From NCBI GenBank assembly GCA_021199655.1, contig JAJQHQ010000050.1:62001-126000 (forward strand): a stretch of DNA of 64,000 nt. The letters are read 5' to 3'. This DNA comes from Lachnospiraceae bacterium. GTDB taxonomy: Bacteria > Bacillota > Clostridia > Lachnospirales > Lachnospiraceae. Both the position numbers and the translations under genes were made by a program. How positions within the stretch are numbered: the first letter of the stretch is position 1; each line of letters starts with the position of its first letter. Below, piece by piece: positions 5,022-49,145 of this stretch. The notes under the pieces are model-generated. The model made no database searches, was not told the origin of the DNA, and worked only from the letters and a program-made list of their open reading frames with translations.

Positions 5022-5275
5022 GTAACAGTTCAGAGCAGCAGCGAAATGAAAATACAGGCTGTGCAGGTTTACCTGCTAAAGACTGTATTTTCATTTCGGG
5101 ATGGGCGGGCGCTGATCGTCCAGTGGACGATCGTTTAGCGCCGACCGAAGTGGAACGGAGACGCCCATCAAGCCTCAGACATATGACGCGCAAGCGGCAT
5201 ATAGCCTTCGAAGAAGGCGGTCTGTGGCCTGCTGTTCTGAATAGTTACCTTTTATGTAACAGTTCAGAGCAACGG
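5022..5275 (+). repeat. Composite palindromic element, family 2, with nested AGT-hairpin module
   Basis: The outer ends GTAACAGTTCAGAGCAGCAG (5022) and CTGCTGTTCTGAATAGTTAC (ending 5248) are inverted repeats. Within is CGAAATGAAAATACAG, matched by its complement near 5080-5097. A GATGGGCG/CGCCCATC stem encloses the hairpin module GGCGCT-GATCGTCC-AGT-GGACGATC-GTTTAGCGCC (5109-5162). A partial end (GTAACAGTTCAGAGCAACGG, 5256-5275) follows directly and ends 26 bases before the Rrf2 start. Confidence 0.75.
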
Positions 5276-7493: not shown

Positions 7494-8891
7494 ATGAAAA
7501 ATTTGCAGGTTATAGAGACATTCGGCCACTATGTGGAAAAATTGAGTGATACCGACCCGGCGAAAGCGCGGGTCCTTTTAAAGACGGGCTGGCAGGCTCA
7601 GAATCTGAAGTTCCGTTTTACGCCGGATAAAGAGCTGCTTCCGGCAGACCGGTATCTGGCGCGGCTGATGATGGATACGATGCTGCGGCCGCTGAAAAAC
7701 CCGGATCAGAGTGTTTTGGTCAGCGTGTTTACGCCCTGTGAGCTGATGCAGGAGGTGGGACTGTTTCCGTACAATGTGGAGAGCTTTTCCTGTTATCTGT
7801 CCGCTTCAAAAGCGGAGCGGGCGTTTTTGCAGACTGCTGAGGACTGCGGCATTTCGGAGACGCTGTGCAGCTATCATAAGACGTTTATCGGAGCAGCAAA
7901 AAAGGGACTTTTGCCAGCACCGTGCTGTATTGTCTACACGACGCTTGCATGCGATGCGAACCTGCTGACGTTCCGCGAGTTGGCGGAACTGTACGGAGTG
8001 CCGTGTTTTGCAATCGATATACCCGCGTGCCGGCCCAACGCGCAGCGTTCTTACAATGGCCGGCACAATCTGCCGCCAAGCGATAGCGAGGGGGCGTCAC
8101 CCGCGTGCCGGACGAAAATGCCAATTACGAAAGATGACAGGATGTTGTCGCCGGATGACGCGAACGTAGCTTACGTGGCGGAGCAGCTGCGCGAGCTGGC
8201 GGCTTTTTTGGAGAAACATACCGGTAAAAAAATTAACGAGGACAGCCTGCGGGAACGTTTGGCGCGAAGCAGGCGGACGCTTGCGAATTACGACCGTTTT
8301 CAAAAAGAACGAGTGGATAAATATATCCCGGCGGATCTGGTGTCGCCGCTGTACTGTGGTATGACCAATAATATTTTGCTGGGGACAAAAGAGGAAGAGG
8401 CCTATACAGAAAAACTGCTGGCCGATCTGGAAAAGGCCGGTCCGGCGCGGGGAAAGCGCATTTACTGGATGCACATCATCCCGTTCTGGTCAGATGCGGT
8501 AAAGAATGTGTTCCGGCTGAATGAAAATGCGCAGATTGTCGGCTGCGAGCTGGCGCAGGTTGCGAATCTGGAGGCGCATTCGGATGATCCGTATGAGGAT
8601 ATGGCGATGCGGCTGCTTTATAATGCATTGAATGGCAGCATCAGCCGCCGGATCGAAGCGGGCATCCGCCACGCGAAAGAGACGAAGGCGGACGGCGTCG
8701 TCTGGTTTAACCACTGGGGCTGCAAGCATACGCTCGGCGGTTCACAGCTTGCGAAGAAACGGTTTGAGGCGGCCGGTATCCCGACCCTGATCCTGGACGG
8801 AGACGGCTGTGACCGGAGCCACGGAGGCGAAGGGCAGACATCTACGCGGCTGGGAGCTTTTCTGGAGATGCTGAACGCGGAGGATAATTGA
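7494..8891 (+). CDS. 2-hydroxyacyl-CoA dehydratase D-component family protein
   Basis: 465 residues of the HgdB/FldC/BcrC-like family, oxygen-sensitive subunits holding a [4Fe-4S] cluster that remove water from 2-hydroxyacyl-CoA or act in related radical reductions. Candidate cluster cysteines occur in FTPCELM, TTLACDANLLTF and NHWGCKHTLGGSQ. Start is ATG 7494; a TTG at 7503 has better spacing from GGAAGG and is an alternative. The partner and activase are fused in the next gene, 25 bases downstream. Residues about 181-206 are a 26-codon in-frame insert bounded by 13-bp direct repeats (ACCCGCGTGCCGG at 8021 and 8099). Substrate cannot be assigned. Confidence 0.85.
   Translation: MKNLQVIETFGHYVEKLSDTDPAKARVLLKTGWQAQNLKFRFTPDKELLPADRYLARLMMDTMLRPLKNPDQSVLVSVFTPCELMQEVGLFPYNVESFSCYLSASKAERAFLQTAEDCGISETLCSYHKTFIGAAKKGLLPAPCCIVYTTLACDANLLTFRELAELYGVPCFAIDIPACRPNAQRSYNGRHNLPPSDSEGASPACRTKMPITKDDRMLSPDDANVAYVAEQLRELAAFLEKHTGKKINEDSLRERLARSRRTLANYDRFQKERVDKYIPADLVSPLYCGMTNNILLGTKEEEAYTEKLLADLEKAGPARGKRIYWMHIIPFWSDAVKNVFRLNENAQIVGCELAQVANLEAHSDDPYEDMAMRLLYNALNGSISRRIEAGIRHAKETKADGVVWFNHWGCKHTLGGSQLAKKRFEAAGIPTLILDGDGCDRSHGGEGQTSTRLGAFLEMLNAEDN
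8021..8111 (+). repeat. In-frame insert with 13-bp direct repeats inside the dehydratase gene
   Basis: ACCCGCGTGCCGG occurs at 8021-8033 and 8099-8111, exactly 78 bases (26 codons) apart. Removing one repeat and the insert restores a continuous sequence, IDIPACR-TKMP. The insert codes a low-complexity Asn/Ser/Pro/Arg stretch. Confidence 0.75.
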
Positions 8892-15801: not shown

Positions 15802-16075
15802 GTATCTATTCAGAACAGCAGGCCACAGGTCTACGCTCCGCTTCGGTCGTCGCTAAACGGACGTCCACTGGACGTCCAGCGACGCCTTCTTCGAAGGCTA
15901 TATGCCGCTTGCACGTCATATTCTCCGCTGCCGCTCCGGTCGGTGCTAAACGAGCGCCACTGGCGCTCAGCACCTGAGGCTTGATGGGCGTCTCCGTTCC
16001 ACTTCGGTCGGCGCTAAACGGACATCCACTGGATGTCCAGCGCCCGCCCATCTCGAAATGAAAATTAACTTTACA
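15802..16075 (-). repeat. Composite palindromic element, family 2, with three AGT-hairpin modules
   Basis: Left edge GTATCTATTCAGAACAGCAG, right edge CTCGAAATGAAAATTAAC. It is the inverted counterpart of the element at 5022. It carries three hairpin modules in minus orientation at about 15829-15883, 15922-15973 and 15990-16043. Their stem arms differ (GGACGTCC, GAGCGCC, GGACATCC) but each arm stays complementary to its partner. CTTCTTCGAAGG (15888) is shared with 5208-5219. Confidence 0.75.
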
Positions 16076-25070: not shown

Positions 25071-25253
25071 TTATTCAGGACAGTACCTCGCACTTGCTGC
25101 GAGGTGCGTATGAAACGTAAATATTGCAAGGGAAAATCCCATCGCGGCGCTGAACGTCCAGTGGACGTTCGCTTAGCGCCGACCGAAGCGGCAGCGGAGA
25201 CGCGATTTTAAATGGATTTTCCCTGCGTAACTGTGAAGGTACTGAACAGTTAC
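25068..25253 (+). repeat. Family 1 element with an AGT-hairpin module nested in its core
   Basis: Left end TTATTCAGGACAGTACCTCG with hairpin, right end GTAACTGTGAAGGTACTGAA to CAGTTAC. The core stem (GGGAAAATCCCATCGCG / CGCGATTTTAAATGG) is split by the module GGCGCT-GAACGTCC-AGT-GGACGTTC-GCTTAGCGCC plus GACCGAAGCGG (25146-25201). The structure shows one element inserted in another. It ends 39 bases before the ABC ATPase start. Confidence 0.8.
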
Positions 25254-25292: not shown

Positions 25293-26474
25293 ATGAGCAA
25301 GATTGTGGCATCCGGGATCGTGAAGCGATACGGGGAGAAGGAAGTGCTTCACGGCATTGACCTGGAACTGGAGCAGGGCAAGATCTACGGCCTGATCGGG
25401 CGCAACGGTGCCGGGAAGACGACGCTGTTGTCTATCCTAAGCTCGCAGAATCCTGCGACGGAAGGGGCAGTGACGGTGGAGGTTTCTCCTGACGATGCGA
25501 AGCCGGATGACTGGCAGGGAAAGAGCAGCAGTGCCGGGAACGGATCGAATATCGTAAAAATGAGACCGCGGTCTGCGGTTGTTCGTGAGCCGGTCTGGGA
25601 GAACCCGAAAGCGCTCTCGCATCTGTGTTTTTCGCGGGAGCTGAATCAGATGGTTGGAAACAGCGCAAATACGATGAAGGTGAAAGAGTACCTGAAGATC
25701 GCGTCGCTGTTCCTTCCGCACTGGGATCAGAAGATGGCGGATCACCTTGTAGCGGAGTTTGGGCTGGATACGAAGAAAAAGATCAGTAAGCTGTCCAAAG
25801 GCATGCTTTCGATGGTGACGATCGTTGTGGCGCTCGCGAGCGGGGCGGAGTTCACGTTTCTGGATGAGCCGGTCGCGGGGCTGGATGTGGTCGCGAGGGA
25901 GAAGTTTTATCAGCTTCTGCTGGAGGAATTCACCGAGACCGGCCGGACGTTTGTGATCTCGACTCATATTATTGAGGAGGCAGCGGACATTTTTGAGGAA
26001 GTGATCCTGCTGGATGAAGGGAAAATCCTTTTAAAAGAGAATCTGGAGGAACTGCTGGAGCGTGCCTGGTGCGTGAGCGGACGTGAGGATGAGGTGGACC
26101 GCGCGACCGCGGGATATACACAGCACCATGCAGAACGTCTGGGCAGAAGCAAGAGTGTTACGATTCTGGAGCCGAAGCAGGGCGAAGTAAGAGAAAATGA
26201 GCAGACGGATCGGCTGGAGCCGAAGCCAGATGGAGCCGGAGAAAGCAGGCAGATGGATTGGCAGGCGGACACGGACATGGAGTGCAGTCAGTCAGGCGGG
26301 CAGCCCGGATTTACAAGGGGTAATGCTGATGTAGAAACGCCCCTTCGTCCCGATGGGACTCAGCGGCAGAACGCCGCGTCCATACAAATGCGCTTCGCGC
26401 GGGACGCGGCTGTTACGGTTCAGAAGGTGAGCCTGCAGAAGCTGTTCGTGGCGCTGTGCGGTGAGGAGCATTGA
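25293..26474 (+). CDS. ABC transporter ATP-binding protein of the GntR operon
   Basis: 393 residues against about 290-300 usual for YtrB-like ATPases. Walker A GRNGAGKTT, signature region LSKGMLSMVTIVVALASG, Walker B FTFLDEPVAGLD, switch His in ISTHIIEEAADIF. Extra length sits in a segment at about 60-105 and in a low-complexity stretch at about 285-375. The latter contains a copy of the core hairpin (26374-26409) read in frame. The family C-terminus resumes with VSLQKLFVALCGEE. GGAGGAG precedes the start. Partner permeases follow at 26537 and 27332. Confidence 0.88.
   Translation: MSKIVASGIVKRYGEKEVLHGIDLELEQGKIYGLIGRNGAGKTTLLSILSSQNPATEGAVTVEVSPDDAKPDDWQGKSSSAGNGSNIVKMRPRSAVVREPVWENPKALSHLCFSRELNQMVGNSANTMKVKEYLKIASLFLPHWDQKMADHLVAEFGLDTKKKISKLSKGMLSMVTIVVALASGAEFTFLDEPVAGLDVVAREKFYQLLLEEFTETGRTFVISTHIIEEAADIFEEVILLDEGKILLKENLEELLERAWCVSGREDEVDRATAGYTQHHAERLGRSKSVTILEPKQGEVRENEQTDRLEPKPDGAGESRQMDWQADTDMECSQSGGQPGFTRGNADVETPLRPDGTQRQNAASIQMRFARDAAVTVQKVSLQKLFVALCGEEH
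26374..26409 (+). repeat. Core hairpin inside the ABC ATPase coding sequence
   Basis: CCGCGTCC / GGACGCGG around ATACAAATGCGCTTCGCGC. Compared with the intergenic copy at 24607, the fourth-last stem pair differs on both sides, so the pairing is kept. The reading frame is not interrupted. Confidence 0.65.
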
Positions 26475-46350: not shown

Positions 46351-46575
46351 ACTTTATAGGAAACTTCGTTCCTATAAAGTAAAAACGCTCCGCGAGGGCG
46401 CTGGATGTCCAGTGGACATCCGCTTAGCGCCGACCGGAACGGAGTGGAGAGCGCACTCGCGCGTAAAGAATTATGTCGCTGAAGCGACCGCGTCTACGCT
46501 CCGCTTCGGTCGTTGCTAAACGAGCGCCACTGGCGCTCAGCAACGGCGCGAGAATGCGCCAAGGCGCATTCTTTT
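46351..46575. repeat. Cluster of palindromes with two opposed AGT-hairpin modules
   Basis: ACTTTATAGGAA / TTCCTATAAAGT (46351-46380); module GGCGCT-GGATGTCC-AGT-GGACATCC (46398-46450, plus orientation); GTCGCT-ga-AGCGAC near 46473; module in minus orientation with GAGCGCC-ACT-GGCGCTC (46491-46545); perfect palindrome AGAATGCGCC-AA-GGCGCATTCT (46551-46572). No gene lies in this stretch. Confidence 0.75.
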
Positions 46576-46599
46576 TTACCACCGAAACTATGAGCGTGT

Positions 46600-47823
46600 C
46601 TATATCATCCAGATTGGGACAATATAATTTTGAGAATTGATCGCGGAAAGCTCCGGGCGCATGCAAAGCACAGCGCCGGTTCCGCGGGGAACCGTGCCTT
46701 TGTCCAGTATGGAAAAAGTTCCCGCCAGTTCGCTGCCCGGATTCACGGATCGTTTAATCTCCAGCGGATGCAGCTGGCCGTCACTCTCCATCACCAGATC
46801 AATCTCATTGCTGCTCTTGTCACGATAGTACCAGAGCAGGCATTCCTGCGCATTGTTCTGAAAACTCTTCAAAATTTCCGACACCACATAATTTTCCAAA
46901 ATAGAACCGTTGATCGCTCCGTTCTGCAGAATATCCGGGGAACTATAGCGGGTCAGATACGCAACCAATCCCGTATCAAAGAAATACATCTTCGGTGTTT
47001 TCACTGTCCTTTTCAGAAGATTGTTGGAATAAGGTCTCAGATAAAAAATGATATCAGACTTTTCCAACACCTGCAGCCAGCGTTTGGCGGTATCGTCTGA
47101 TACGCCCACATCCTGCGCAATATCATGAATATTCAGCATTTGCCCGGCTCTGCAGGCCGCCGCACGAACGAAGTCCTGAAACAGAAGCTTATCTGTCAAA
47201 GCCACCAGTTCGCTGACGTCCCGATCTATATAGGTTTGTAAATAGCTGGAATAAAATACATCACGGTCTGTAAATTTTCCACTGACATATCCGGGAAGAG
47301 ACCCTTTCCAGATTCGTTGATAGATTCCCTCCAGATTGACCGGTGCGCCTGTATTTTTACGAATTTTCAAAGCTTTTAAATCCACTGAAAAAGGCATACA
47401 CGCTCCCGAACCGTAAACCTCATGCGCAGACAGACCGGGCATGTGCAGCAGAGCGGTTCGCCCCGCCAGTGACTCCTGTGCAAGCTCCATCATATGAAAT
47501 GCCTGAGAACCGGTCAGCCAGAAAGAACCTGGGGCTGCGCCATTATCAATAGCAATTTTAATATAAGAAAAAAGTTCAGGCGCATACTGTATTTCATCAA
47601 TCAAAACCGGTAAATCGTGCATCTGCAGGAAAAGAGCCGGGTCGTGCCTGGCCAGCTTCCGCTCTTCCATATCATCCAGTGTCACATAATTTCGCTCACC
47701 GGACATCAGTTTCCGCAGTACCGTAGTCTTCCCAACCTGACGTGGTCCGGTGATCAATAAACAGGCATACTCCTGAGAAAGGGCAAGGATTTTACTTTCT
47801 ATATCTCTTTTAATATAATTCAT
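46600..47823 (-). CDS. AAA family ATPase, DUF4143 type (second)
   Basis: 407 residues. Walker A GPRQVGKTTVLRKL (about 25-38), Walker B LPVLIDEIQYAPE, sensor region SFWLTGSQAFHMM, DUF4143 with winged helix (IAQDVGVSDDTAKRWLQVL), and C-terminal PD-(D/E)XK-like EIDLVMESDGQLHPLEIKRS. Different subgroup from the protein at 22980. Start 47823 has AGAAGGAGGGCATC upstream. Stand-alone gene; role unknown. Confidence 0.88.
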   Translation of the reverse strand: MNYIKRDIESKILALSQEYACLLITGPRQVGKTTVLRKLMSGERNYVTLDDMEERKLARHDPALFLQMHDLPVLIDEIQYAPELFSYIKIAIDNGAAPGSFWLTGSQAFHMMELAQESLAGRTALLHMPGLSAHEVYGSGACMPFSVDLKALKIRKNTGAPVNLEGIYQRIWKGSLPGYVSGKFTDRDVFYSSYLQTYIDRDVSELVALTDKLLFQDFVRAAACRAGQMLNIHDIAQDVGVSDDTAKRWLQVLEKSDIIFYLRPYSNNLLKRTVKTPKMYFFDTGLVAYLTRYSSPDILQNGAINGSILENYVVSEILKSFQNNAQECLLWYYRDKSSNEIDLVMESDGQLHPLEIKRSVNPGSELAGTFSILDKGTVPRGTGAVLCMRPELSAINSQNYIVPIWMI

Positions 47824-47979: not shown

Positions 47980-48960
47980 ATGAAATTATATGTGTACAGC
48001 ATGCGGGAGTTTGACGAGCTTCCGTGTTTTGAAAAATTTTGTAAAAAATATGGGATTGAATACGACTACACGACGGAGACGCCGTGCCTTGAGAATCTGG
48101 ATTACTGCCGGGGATATGAAGTGGTCGATATCATCACGACCGTAATTGACCGGCCGATGCTGGATCGTTTTCATGAACTTGGAGTACGCTGCCTGACGAC
48201 GAGAACGATTGGCTATGACCATATCGACACGGCGTACGCGAAGCAGTTGGGCATCGGCGTGATTCATGTTAGTTATTCGCCGAACAGCGTGGCAGACTAC
48301 ACGATTATGATGATGCTGATGGGCTGCCGGAAACTGCCGCATATCATGGAGCGCGCTGCGGTGCAGGATTATACGCTGAAAGGAAAACTCGGCCGGGAGA
48401 TCCAGGACTGCACGGTGGGGATCATCGGCACCGGGCGGATCGGGAAAACGGTTATCCGTCACCTTTCCGGCTTCGGCTGCAAAATGCTTGCCTATGACAT
48501 TTATGAAAGTGATGAGGTCAGGGAGTACGCGCAGTACGTGGATCTGGACACCATTTACCGGGAGTGCGACATTATCACGCTGCACGCCCCGGCTACAGAC
48601 GACAATTATCATATGATCAACGCGCAGGCGATCGAGAAGATGAAGCAGGACGTGATCCTGATCAACTGCGCGCGAGGCGCTCTGGTGGACACGGACGCGC
48701 TGATCGACGGCATTGAGAACGGGAAGATCGGCTTCGCCGGCCTGGACGTCGTTGAGCATGAGAGCGGACTTTATTATTTCAACCGAATGGGTGAGCCGCT
48801 GCACAACCCGAAGCTGGCGATCCTGCGCTCGTACTCAAACGTTCTTGTAAGTCCGCACACCGCCTTTTACACGGACGAGGCAGTGGCTAATATGGCGGAA
48901 AATTCCATCCTCGGCGCCATGAAATTCATGAATGGAGAGGAGACGCCGTTTCTTGTATGA
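47980..48960 (+). CDS. D-lactate dehydrogenase / D-2-hydroxyacid dehydrogenase (LdhA/VanH-like)
   Basis: 326 residues. NAD-binding GIIGTGRIGKTVIRHL, catalytic Arg in NCARGALVDT, Glu in GLDVVEHESG and His in VSPHTAFYTDEA. The N-terminus MKLYVYSMREFDELPCFEKF is of the D-LDH/VanH group. It reduces a 2-oxo acid, probably pyruvate, to the D-hydroxyacid; in VanH-like cases for D-Ala-D-Lac synthesis, but no van genes are near. GGGAGGAA precedes the start. Confidence 0.9.
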   Translation: MKLYVYSMREFDELPCFEKFCKKYGIEYDYTTETPCLENLDYCRGYEVVDIITTVIDRPMLDRFHELGVRCLTTRTIGYDHIDTAYAKQLGIGVIHVSYSPNSVADYTIMMMLMGCRKLPHIMERAAVQDYTLKGKLGREIQDCTVGIIGTGRIGKTVIRHLSGFGCKMLAYDIYESDEVREYAQYVDLDTIYRECDIITLHAPATDDNYHMINAQAIEKMKQDVILINCARGALVDTDALIDGIENGKIGFAGLDVVEHESGLYYFNRMGEPLHNPKLAILRSYSNVLVSPHTAFYTDEAVANMAENSILGAMKFMNGEETPFLV

Positions 48961-48972
48961 TACAAGGGACAA

Positions 48973-49013
48973 AAGGTCAGGAAAGGAACGCTTGAGTTCC
49001 GATTCCTGACCTT
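48973..49013 (+). terminator. Long hairpin after the dehydrogenase gene
   Basis: AAGGTCAGGAA / TTCCTGACCTT with inner GGAAC/GTTCC. No T-run, so a transcription-end function is only probable. Confidence 0.5.
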
Positions 49014-49081
49014 GGGGACCGAAAAAACATGAGAAAGTAGCCATTTTTCGAAGAAAAATGAGCGGATTTCGAAGGTTTTTA

Positions 49082-49120
49082 GGATTTCGGGAGTGCGAAG
49101 CACGAAGAAATCCGTAGTAT
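49082..49120. repeat. Hairpin related to that at 40958
   Basis: GGATTTC / GAAATCC enclosing GTGCGAAGCAC, followed by GTAGTATCA. The copy at 40958 has ATTGC/GCAAT at the same place with GTGTGAAGCAC and GTGGTATCA, so the stem changed in a paired way. Confidence 0.55.
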
Positions 49121-49145
49121 CATACTTTTTGGCGCAGAAAGTCCC

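Follow-up and report, generated by a model that had tools for sequence, protein, structure and literature searches.

A hairpin module found seven times in the window, which here means the whole 64-kb stretch of DNA analysed, is a tiny, sharply bounded mobile element of gut-type bacteria. It is usually 54 nt long and takes the place of about 3 nt of its target, most often G-A-N, without target duplication. As 54 nt are exchanged for 3, the net gain of 51 nt preserves the reading frame, and copies lie within real genes. The host genome of the window (3.98 Mb, 110 contigs) carries about 100 copies. All seven hairpins reported in the first-pass annotation are present, though their coordinates have been slightly corrected, and the apex AGT, the TTAGC, the arms and the four basal stems were found as given there. 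The window copies, with the nucleotides that stand in their place at the empty counterparts, and the repeat that carries two of them are as follows.

5108..5161, plus strand: module copy of 54 nt, with arms GATCGTCC/GGACGATC; empty counterparts have GAA or GGA.
15830..15883, minus strand: module copy of 54 nt, with basal stem GTCGCT/AGCGAC; empty counterparts have GGT or AGT, and the filled copy has an extra C.
15922..15974, minus strand: module copy of 53 nt; empty counterparts have GAC.
15991..16044, minus strand: module copy of 54 nt, inside the loop of a hairpin, GATGGGCG/CGCCCATC; empty counterparts have GGA or GAA.
25146..25200, plus strand: module copy of 55 nt, flanked by CATCGC and GCGAT; empty counterparts have GCA, GAA, AAA or GTA, and the filled copy has an extra C.
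46397..46450, plus strand: module copy of 54 nt, with arms GGATGTCC/GGACATCC; empty counterparts have GAT (or AAT).
46493..46544, minus strand: module copy of 52 nt, with arms GAGCGCC/GGCGCTC; empty counterparts have GAG.
46360..46576, no strand assigned: host repeat with hairpins of its own, containing two modules as separate insertions.

Read in one orientation, the module consists of G-NN-GCT, an arm of 7-8 nt, AGT, the matching arm, G(T/C)TT, AGC-NN-C, GACCG and a tail ending in NAGA. The main fold is a bulged 14-bp hairpin with AGT at the apex. On its 3′ side, GACCG and a short linker are followed by a 2-bp mini-hairpin, GC-GGA-GC, and then by NAGA. Boundary, target and empty-site counts were made only on copies with AGA located 8-17 nt past GACCG and with 30-nt flanks. 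Among the 173 distinct contexts that qualified, the module is 54 nt long in 125, 53 nt in 23 and 55 nt in 11, and its first base is G in 166; the 3′ end is GAGA in 85, TAGA in 62, AAGA in 18 and CAGA in 8, where the AGA is an inclusion criterion. A listing made without the AGA requirement shows the same boundary in most rows. The base directly after NAGA is C in 111 of the 173 contexts. In place of the GTAG/GGAG foot noted earlier, the unit ends in NAGA, sometimes plus C. GNNGCT at one end and NAGA at the other do not form an inverted repeat, and the module has neither the terminal inverted repeats nor the target-site duplication of a MITE.

The short motif GACCGAAGCGGAG has 21 matches in the window at up to 2 mismatches (mean of 2.5 and maximum of 6 in shuffles), of which 6 fall within modules, and by itself is weak evidence for the module. 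An Rfam scan of the window at the gathering score returned three matches, none at the modules; these are two GA-cis RNAs and a Clostridiales-1 RNA, with spans 8023-8105(+), 26329-26414(-) and 48958-49122(+).

A BLAST search of the host genome with the stretch 46360-46600 gave 69 matches. A covariance model built from 30 modules found at least 123 matches there at E≤0.1, including all seven window copies, and by our own count at least 107 at E≤1e-5; the scan scored 150 of 2048 candidates, making these numbers lower bounds, and two of the weak matches overlap on opposite strands. Copy number in genomes of the same genus ranges from 0 to 114, with one or more copies in 24 of 25. Across the order, a scan with strict filters and 14 candidates scored per genome sets a floor of at least 78 of 392 genomes, and at least 44 of 173 genera, with a match at E≤1e-5. 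Among the matches listed, contigs with the exact pattern have mostly Lachnospiraceae titles, together with Butyrivibrio, Eubacterium, Clostridiales and related labels, and include one contig each from Butyrivibrio sp. LC3010 and Clostridium sp. ASF356, both of which we take to be cultivable. No exact pattern match was detected in viral contigs. In one single-contig genome (G285), 9 of the 10 module matches lie in 0.3 Mb of the 2.9 Mb (G285:C1:2527536-2822269), which suggests either that this region was transferred or that the assembly is chimeric.

Mobility of the palindromic module, a suggestion of the first-pass annotation, is strongly supported, and the empty sites are better evidence for it than covariation. 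It rests on filled and empty alleles, movement itself never having been seen directly. Each of the seven window copies has an empty counterpart elsewhere in its own genome. The module has identical ends in 81 context clusters, with insertions across several different repeat families, and an empty-like match was found for 24 of these clusters, about 15 of which were judged to be clear. At the clear sites, three nucleotides stand where the filled site has the module, and these are mostly G-A-N; the main form begins with G at 14 of the sites and has A in second place at about 10. The triplets seen are GAT, GAG, GAA and GAC, also GGT, GCA and GTC, and AAT in one. The first base of the replaced triplet is sometimes not G (AAT, AGT, AAA), and the footprint is not always exactly 3 nt, as several sites have an extra C or a 2-nt reading. 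No target duplication was seen at the filled/empty site pairs. The repeat at 46360-46576 illustrates the alleles: both modules are present in C10 as well as in C107 (97% identity) and C60 (94%), only one is present in C90, and C13, C99, C66 and C56 have none. In this pair, the copies at 46397 and 46493 are inverted relative to each other, yet are two separate insertions.

Target flanks are biased, with T at 2% of -1 positions and 0% of -2 positions over the 81 clusters, against a background of 24%. A stem of at least 5 bp adjoins the site in 25 of the 81 clusters versus 16.9% of swapped-flank controls (p=0.0014), and one of at least 8 bp in none versus 1.3%; for duplex energy at the target sites, p=0.035. 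The preference of insertion sites for hairpin loops is modest. An impression gained from a few sites, that hairpin loops are the only targets, was reduced by this controlled test to a mere preference.

The decisive evidence for in-frame insertion is a filled/empty pair of isoleucyl-tRNA synthetase genes (TIGR00392, above cut-off). The gene is 879 nt in G000, where it contains a module, and 828 nt in the close relative G013, which has GAA at the module position, and the proteins share 99% identity; the difference of 51 nt corresponds to 17 codons. Insert-free orthologs were examined for this gene and for a phosphopantetheinyl transferase gene in which one module is nested in another; neither shifts the frame, and the inner module stands in place of GAT in the outer arm. 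The peptide pair is absent from six related proteins, although this stretch is variable. Pfam families represented in module-bearing genes are ThiF, class I tRNA synthetase, methyltransferase, radical SAM, phosphopantetheinyl transferase and relaxase. In 41 stretches (40 chosen around modules, and the window), 55 of 66 modules are intergenic and 11 fall in open frames of 100 codons or more, intergenic DNA making up 15% of the surveyed stretches. Several of the 11 frames are real genes, encoding the isoleucyl-tRNA synthetase, a ThiF-family protein, a methyltransferase, a radical-SAM protein and the phosphopantetheinyl transferase. A wider scan required an open frame of 200 codons or more, with 25 codons on each side of the module. 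Of 200 distinct modules, 28 qualified, though some of the frames are probably antisense artefacts; the length is 54 nt in 24 of the 28, versus 130 of the 200 overall. Ready-made peptides of 17 residues thereby gain a route into essential enzymes.

Two further observations concern genes of this kind. The isoleucyl-tRNA synthetase genes of G014 and G012 (L285 and L287) carry a different palindromic element, in frame and shortly downstream of the module site. By eye it looks like the repeat that hosts the module in context cluster 34, which hints that several kinds of protein-coding palindrome form a guild. A MobA/VirD2-type relaxase gene in a named relative (L155) contains an in-frame module and is a plausible vehicle for transfer between species.

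Paired change in the stems was assessed in 48 distinct variants, hand-picked for variety from 95 distinct 54-mers, an approach that over-represents rare variants in the test. Rows entered the test only if 7 or more of 8 arm positions (or 6 or more of 7) and 4 or more of 6 basal positions were paired, so the finding that 98.0% of pair cells are paired, versus 88.7% in shuffles, is for the main stem partly by construction. Change on both sides occurs in 9 of 17 pairs (shuffled mean 6.6, 9 reached in 2 of 500 shuffles), and the covariation score of 0.329, versus 0.142 in shuffles, was reached in none of 500. Shifting the stem partners abolishes the signal. The number of further pair types is not exceptional (18 versus 16.7 in shuffles; 94 of 500).

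The tail mini-stem played no part in row selection, and the same arm and basal pairing selection was applied to its rows and to those of the open-frame scan. In 167 distinct sequences, all with a tail of 19 or 20 nt ending in AGA, the inner pair is CG in 149, TA in 16, CA in 1 and TG in 1, and the outer pair is GC in 147, AT in 16, GT in 2 and GA in 2. What had been taken for a plain 3′ flank therefore includes a second, previously unreported mini-hairpin that covaries.

Over 189 parsed modules, taken with a looser pairing filter, 2565 of 2601 stem cells are Watson-Crick pairs, 7 are G-T and 14 are A-C. This near-absence of wobble would fit hairpins that must be perfect as DNA whenever the module moves, or hairpin-templated correction, and its scarcity on either strand is unlike what usually results from long-lived RNA selection. 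These cells, and the covariation in the 48 variants, support the first suggestion that arms and basal stem vary yet stay paired and that the fold is kept. All four combinations were seen for 20 of the 28 pairs of variable stem pairs, indicating that the variants are not merely a few clonal ancestors. Whole-copy descent from a few ancestors, the outcome that the first-pass annotation would have taken as refutation, is thus contradicted by these combinations, but holds for some copies that were amplified along with a larger repeat.

The same annotation compared the module to REP palindromes with a GTAG tag, and it is conceivable, though unlikely, that the module is a REP element moved by a RAYT (Y1) transposase that is present or was recently lost. 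The asymmetric bulge of the hairpin, the high copy number and some palindromic target sites are in keeping with this, and REPs located within palindromes are on record in the accessible text of PMC3733652. However, there is no fixed tag, given the four different bases found before AGA (counts above), the would-be tag is part of a tail 3′ of the hairpins, the unit of 54 nt includes a second hairpin, and about 3 nt of the target are lost. The transposase that this explanation calls for was searched for using PF01797, which had no match in 14 of 30 genomes of the genus, including carriers with 32, 27 and 33 copies. Y1 was not detected in 9 of the 24 module-carrying genus genomes, and was also not matched in four of seven chosen carriers (G407, G285, G358 and G012, the last also in the genus set). 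The 30 Y1 loci examined from the host genome and genus include 28 IS200-type TnpA, one that is RAYT-like by reading and one that is neither. The RAYT-like protein, of 201 aa, is encoded in G001 (L228, G001:C122) and is the sole such protein among the 30 loci, and no module was found beside its gene. The presence of this gene in G001, and of a module and a Y1 fragment in a single locus of G014 (L229), are in favour of a RAYT. A RAYT/IS200 origin as a requirement was rejected, as Y1 went undetected in many carriers and the Y1 loci are mostly IS200-type TnpA.

Reverse transcriptase (PF00078) was detected in 9 of 14 genomes searched, with no match in the carriers G012, G006 and G275, while G016 has 11 matches and no modules. 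A reverse-transcriptase mover was rejected since PF00078 does not correlate with modules over the 14 genomes. Neither Y1 nor reverse transcriptase was detected in G012, a carrier genome that is 100% complete. Carriers may hold old copies or relics, and these absences consequently argue against a present need for such enzymes, not against a past role. The 40 largest clusters among 2051 neighbouring open frames include no transposase common to many contexts, and the sole TnpB cluster among the 40 is from the two IS605 loci of the host genome.

Modules also sit inside other modules, where GAT of the outer arm is replaced, and MITE-like repeats carry them too. In G379, a single-contig genome, the five modules read of 13 matches (L334, L339, L346, L353 and L359) are all in one larger repeat, the outer parts of which are MITE-like, and the module seems to have been amplified there as a passenger. 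Likewise, the five modules read of 10 matches in G285 are all in another larger repeat. These copies, together with strict Watson-Crick arms and few intermediates that would suit hairpin-templated correction, could be explained by a unit that is not itself mobile and is spread as a passenger of MITE-like repeats, with recombination or template switching between hairpins. This is improbable as a full account, because the same ends recur in all 81 context clusters, several different repeat families and unrelated coding genes have been hit, and the isoleucyl-tRNA synthetase gene has a clean empty ortholog.

A further type of landing site is seen at L337 (G275:C1:1811794-1811847), where the module breaks the T-loop of a putative tRNA (anticodon GTT) just past TTCGA; four called tRNA genes lie alongside. 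Similar T-arm contexts were identified by reading at L151, L171 and L348, and ARAGORN calls none of these four module-interrupted putative tRNA genes. In the module orientation, the universal T-loop presumably presents G-R-N beside TCGAA, a match to the target motif.

The modules show no strand bias relative to the dominant coding strand or the G-rich strand (36:30 each for 66 modules in 41 stretches), and in regions with 80% or more of the coding bases on one strand the count is 28:17 (p=0.14). Between co-directional genes, 29 of 39 modules are oriented along transcription (29:10, p=0.0034), which may be due to selection after insertion, and few sites, 5 of 53, are divergent. Both figures would also be expected of a conserved regulatory or structural RNA (a terminator, processing site or sRNA) under selection in transcripts, as would the z-scores of -1.3 to -3.6 for four folded copies, two of the four spans being one base off. 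Such an RNA is nevertheless very unlikely, considering the rarity of G-U pairs (7 of 2601), the occurrence of both orientations in coding genes and of modules in tRNA-like genes, the range from 0 to 114 copies within one genus and the lack of an Rfam match at the window modules.

TnpB loci were examined in the host genome, where both of those detected (L048, L079 and L080, in C48 and C15) have a module in the right end, shortly past the TnpB gene and in the expected omega-RNA region, and in G007, where the related right end L234 has no module at the same point. From this one module-free case, the IS looks like both target and vehicle, and the module does not look like a conserved native part of the right end. 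That the module is an escaped and multiplied piece of IS605/TnpB omega-RNA, as its position in both host TnpB loci might imply, is barely credible in view of L234.

The module is probably a mobile element of about 54 nt that is moved in trans as a folded strand replacing about 3 nt, and that in addition spreads as a passenger. A putative enzyme would recognise both hairpins and swap the folded strand for a short target, somewhat favouring targets in hairpin loops or in the T-loops of tRNAs. A copy whose stem is broken would be a poor substrate, which would keep the stems strictly Watson-Crick. Multiplication of copies as passengers of larger repeats would provide a second route, one that the data support, and copies in IS605-type and conjugative genes might be carried between species. 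More tentatively, the exchange of a folded two-hairpin strand of about 54 nt for a codon-sized G-R-N, by an enzyme that is neither Y1 nor reverse transcriptase, may represent a new kind of transposition, although we hold this stronger proposal to be doubtful. If true, the exchange would by its nature preserve the reading frame, and the module could colonise essential proteins, the T-loops of tRNAs and mobile elements, itself included. The family offers exact empty and filled alleles, a replacement of about 3 nt, a target bias, exact hairpin variants and named carrier strains, which together make the mechanism testable.

Screening of titles and abstracts, with subscription papers outside its scope, found no published description of this element, and several known systems share some of its features. 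Non-autonomous elements derived from IS200/IS605 are likewise hairpin-bearing and without inverted terminal repeats, and a lagging-strand insertion habit is described for IS200/IS605 in the accessible part of PMC6006769. In contrast, the module is inside and not at the IS605 ends of the host genome, has no strand bias and occurs in carriers without Y1. The GC42 elements of yeast mitochondria are, according to the portion of PMC4478555 consulted, tiny GC-rich hairpins that are gained and lost at homologous sites and merge together, and GC clusters are flanked there by putative AG/ACT target duplications. The module is similarly a small hairpin present or absent at homologous sites, but shows target loss instead of duplication and belongs to a different domain of life.

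REPs are short, high-copy palindromes that sometimes occur within other palindromes, and the CGTC REPs have no known transposase, as far as the available text of PMC3733652 goes. The module resembles REPs and REPINs in being a short high-copy palindrome that is sometimes within palindromes. It differs in being longer, with a second hairpin, in the loss of target nucleotides and in having no fixed, unpaired GTAG or CGTC foot, and no regular RAYT gene flanked by the repeats was found.

Compared by description, the nearest system in behaviour appears to be that of the Rickettsia palindromic elements. The classic protein-coding palindromes are those of Rickettsia, and to our knowledge what moves them is an open question. 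In the accessible text of PMC10969869 and PMC3733652, they are small palindromic repeats with many copies that are both intergenic and in frame inside unrelated genes, and a size of about 150 bp, in Rickettsia, is given in that of PMC10969869. The module is also palindromic, dispersed in many copies, and found both between genes and in frame within unrelated protein genes, but it is only about 54 nt in length, occurs in Lachnospiraceae and their relatives, and has two hairpins that covary and a replacement footprint mapped at 3 nt.
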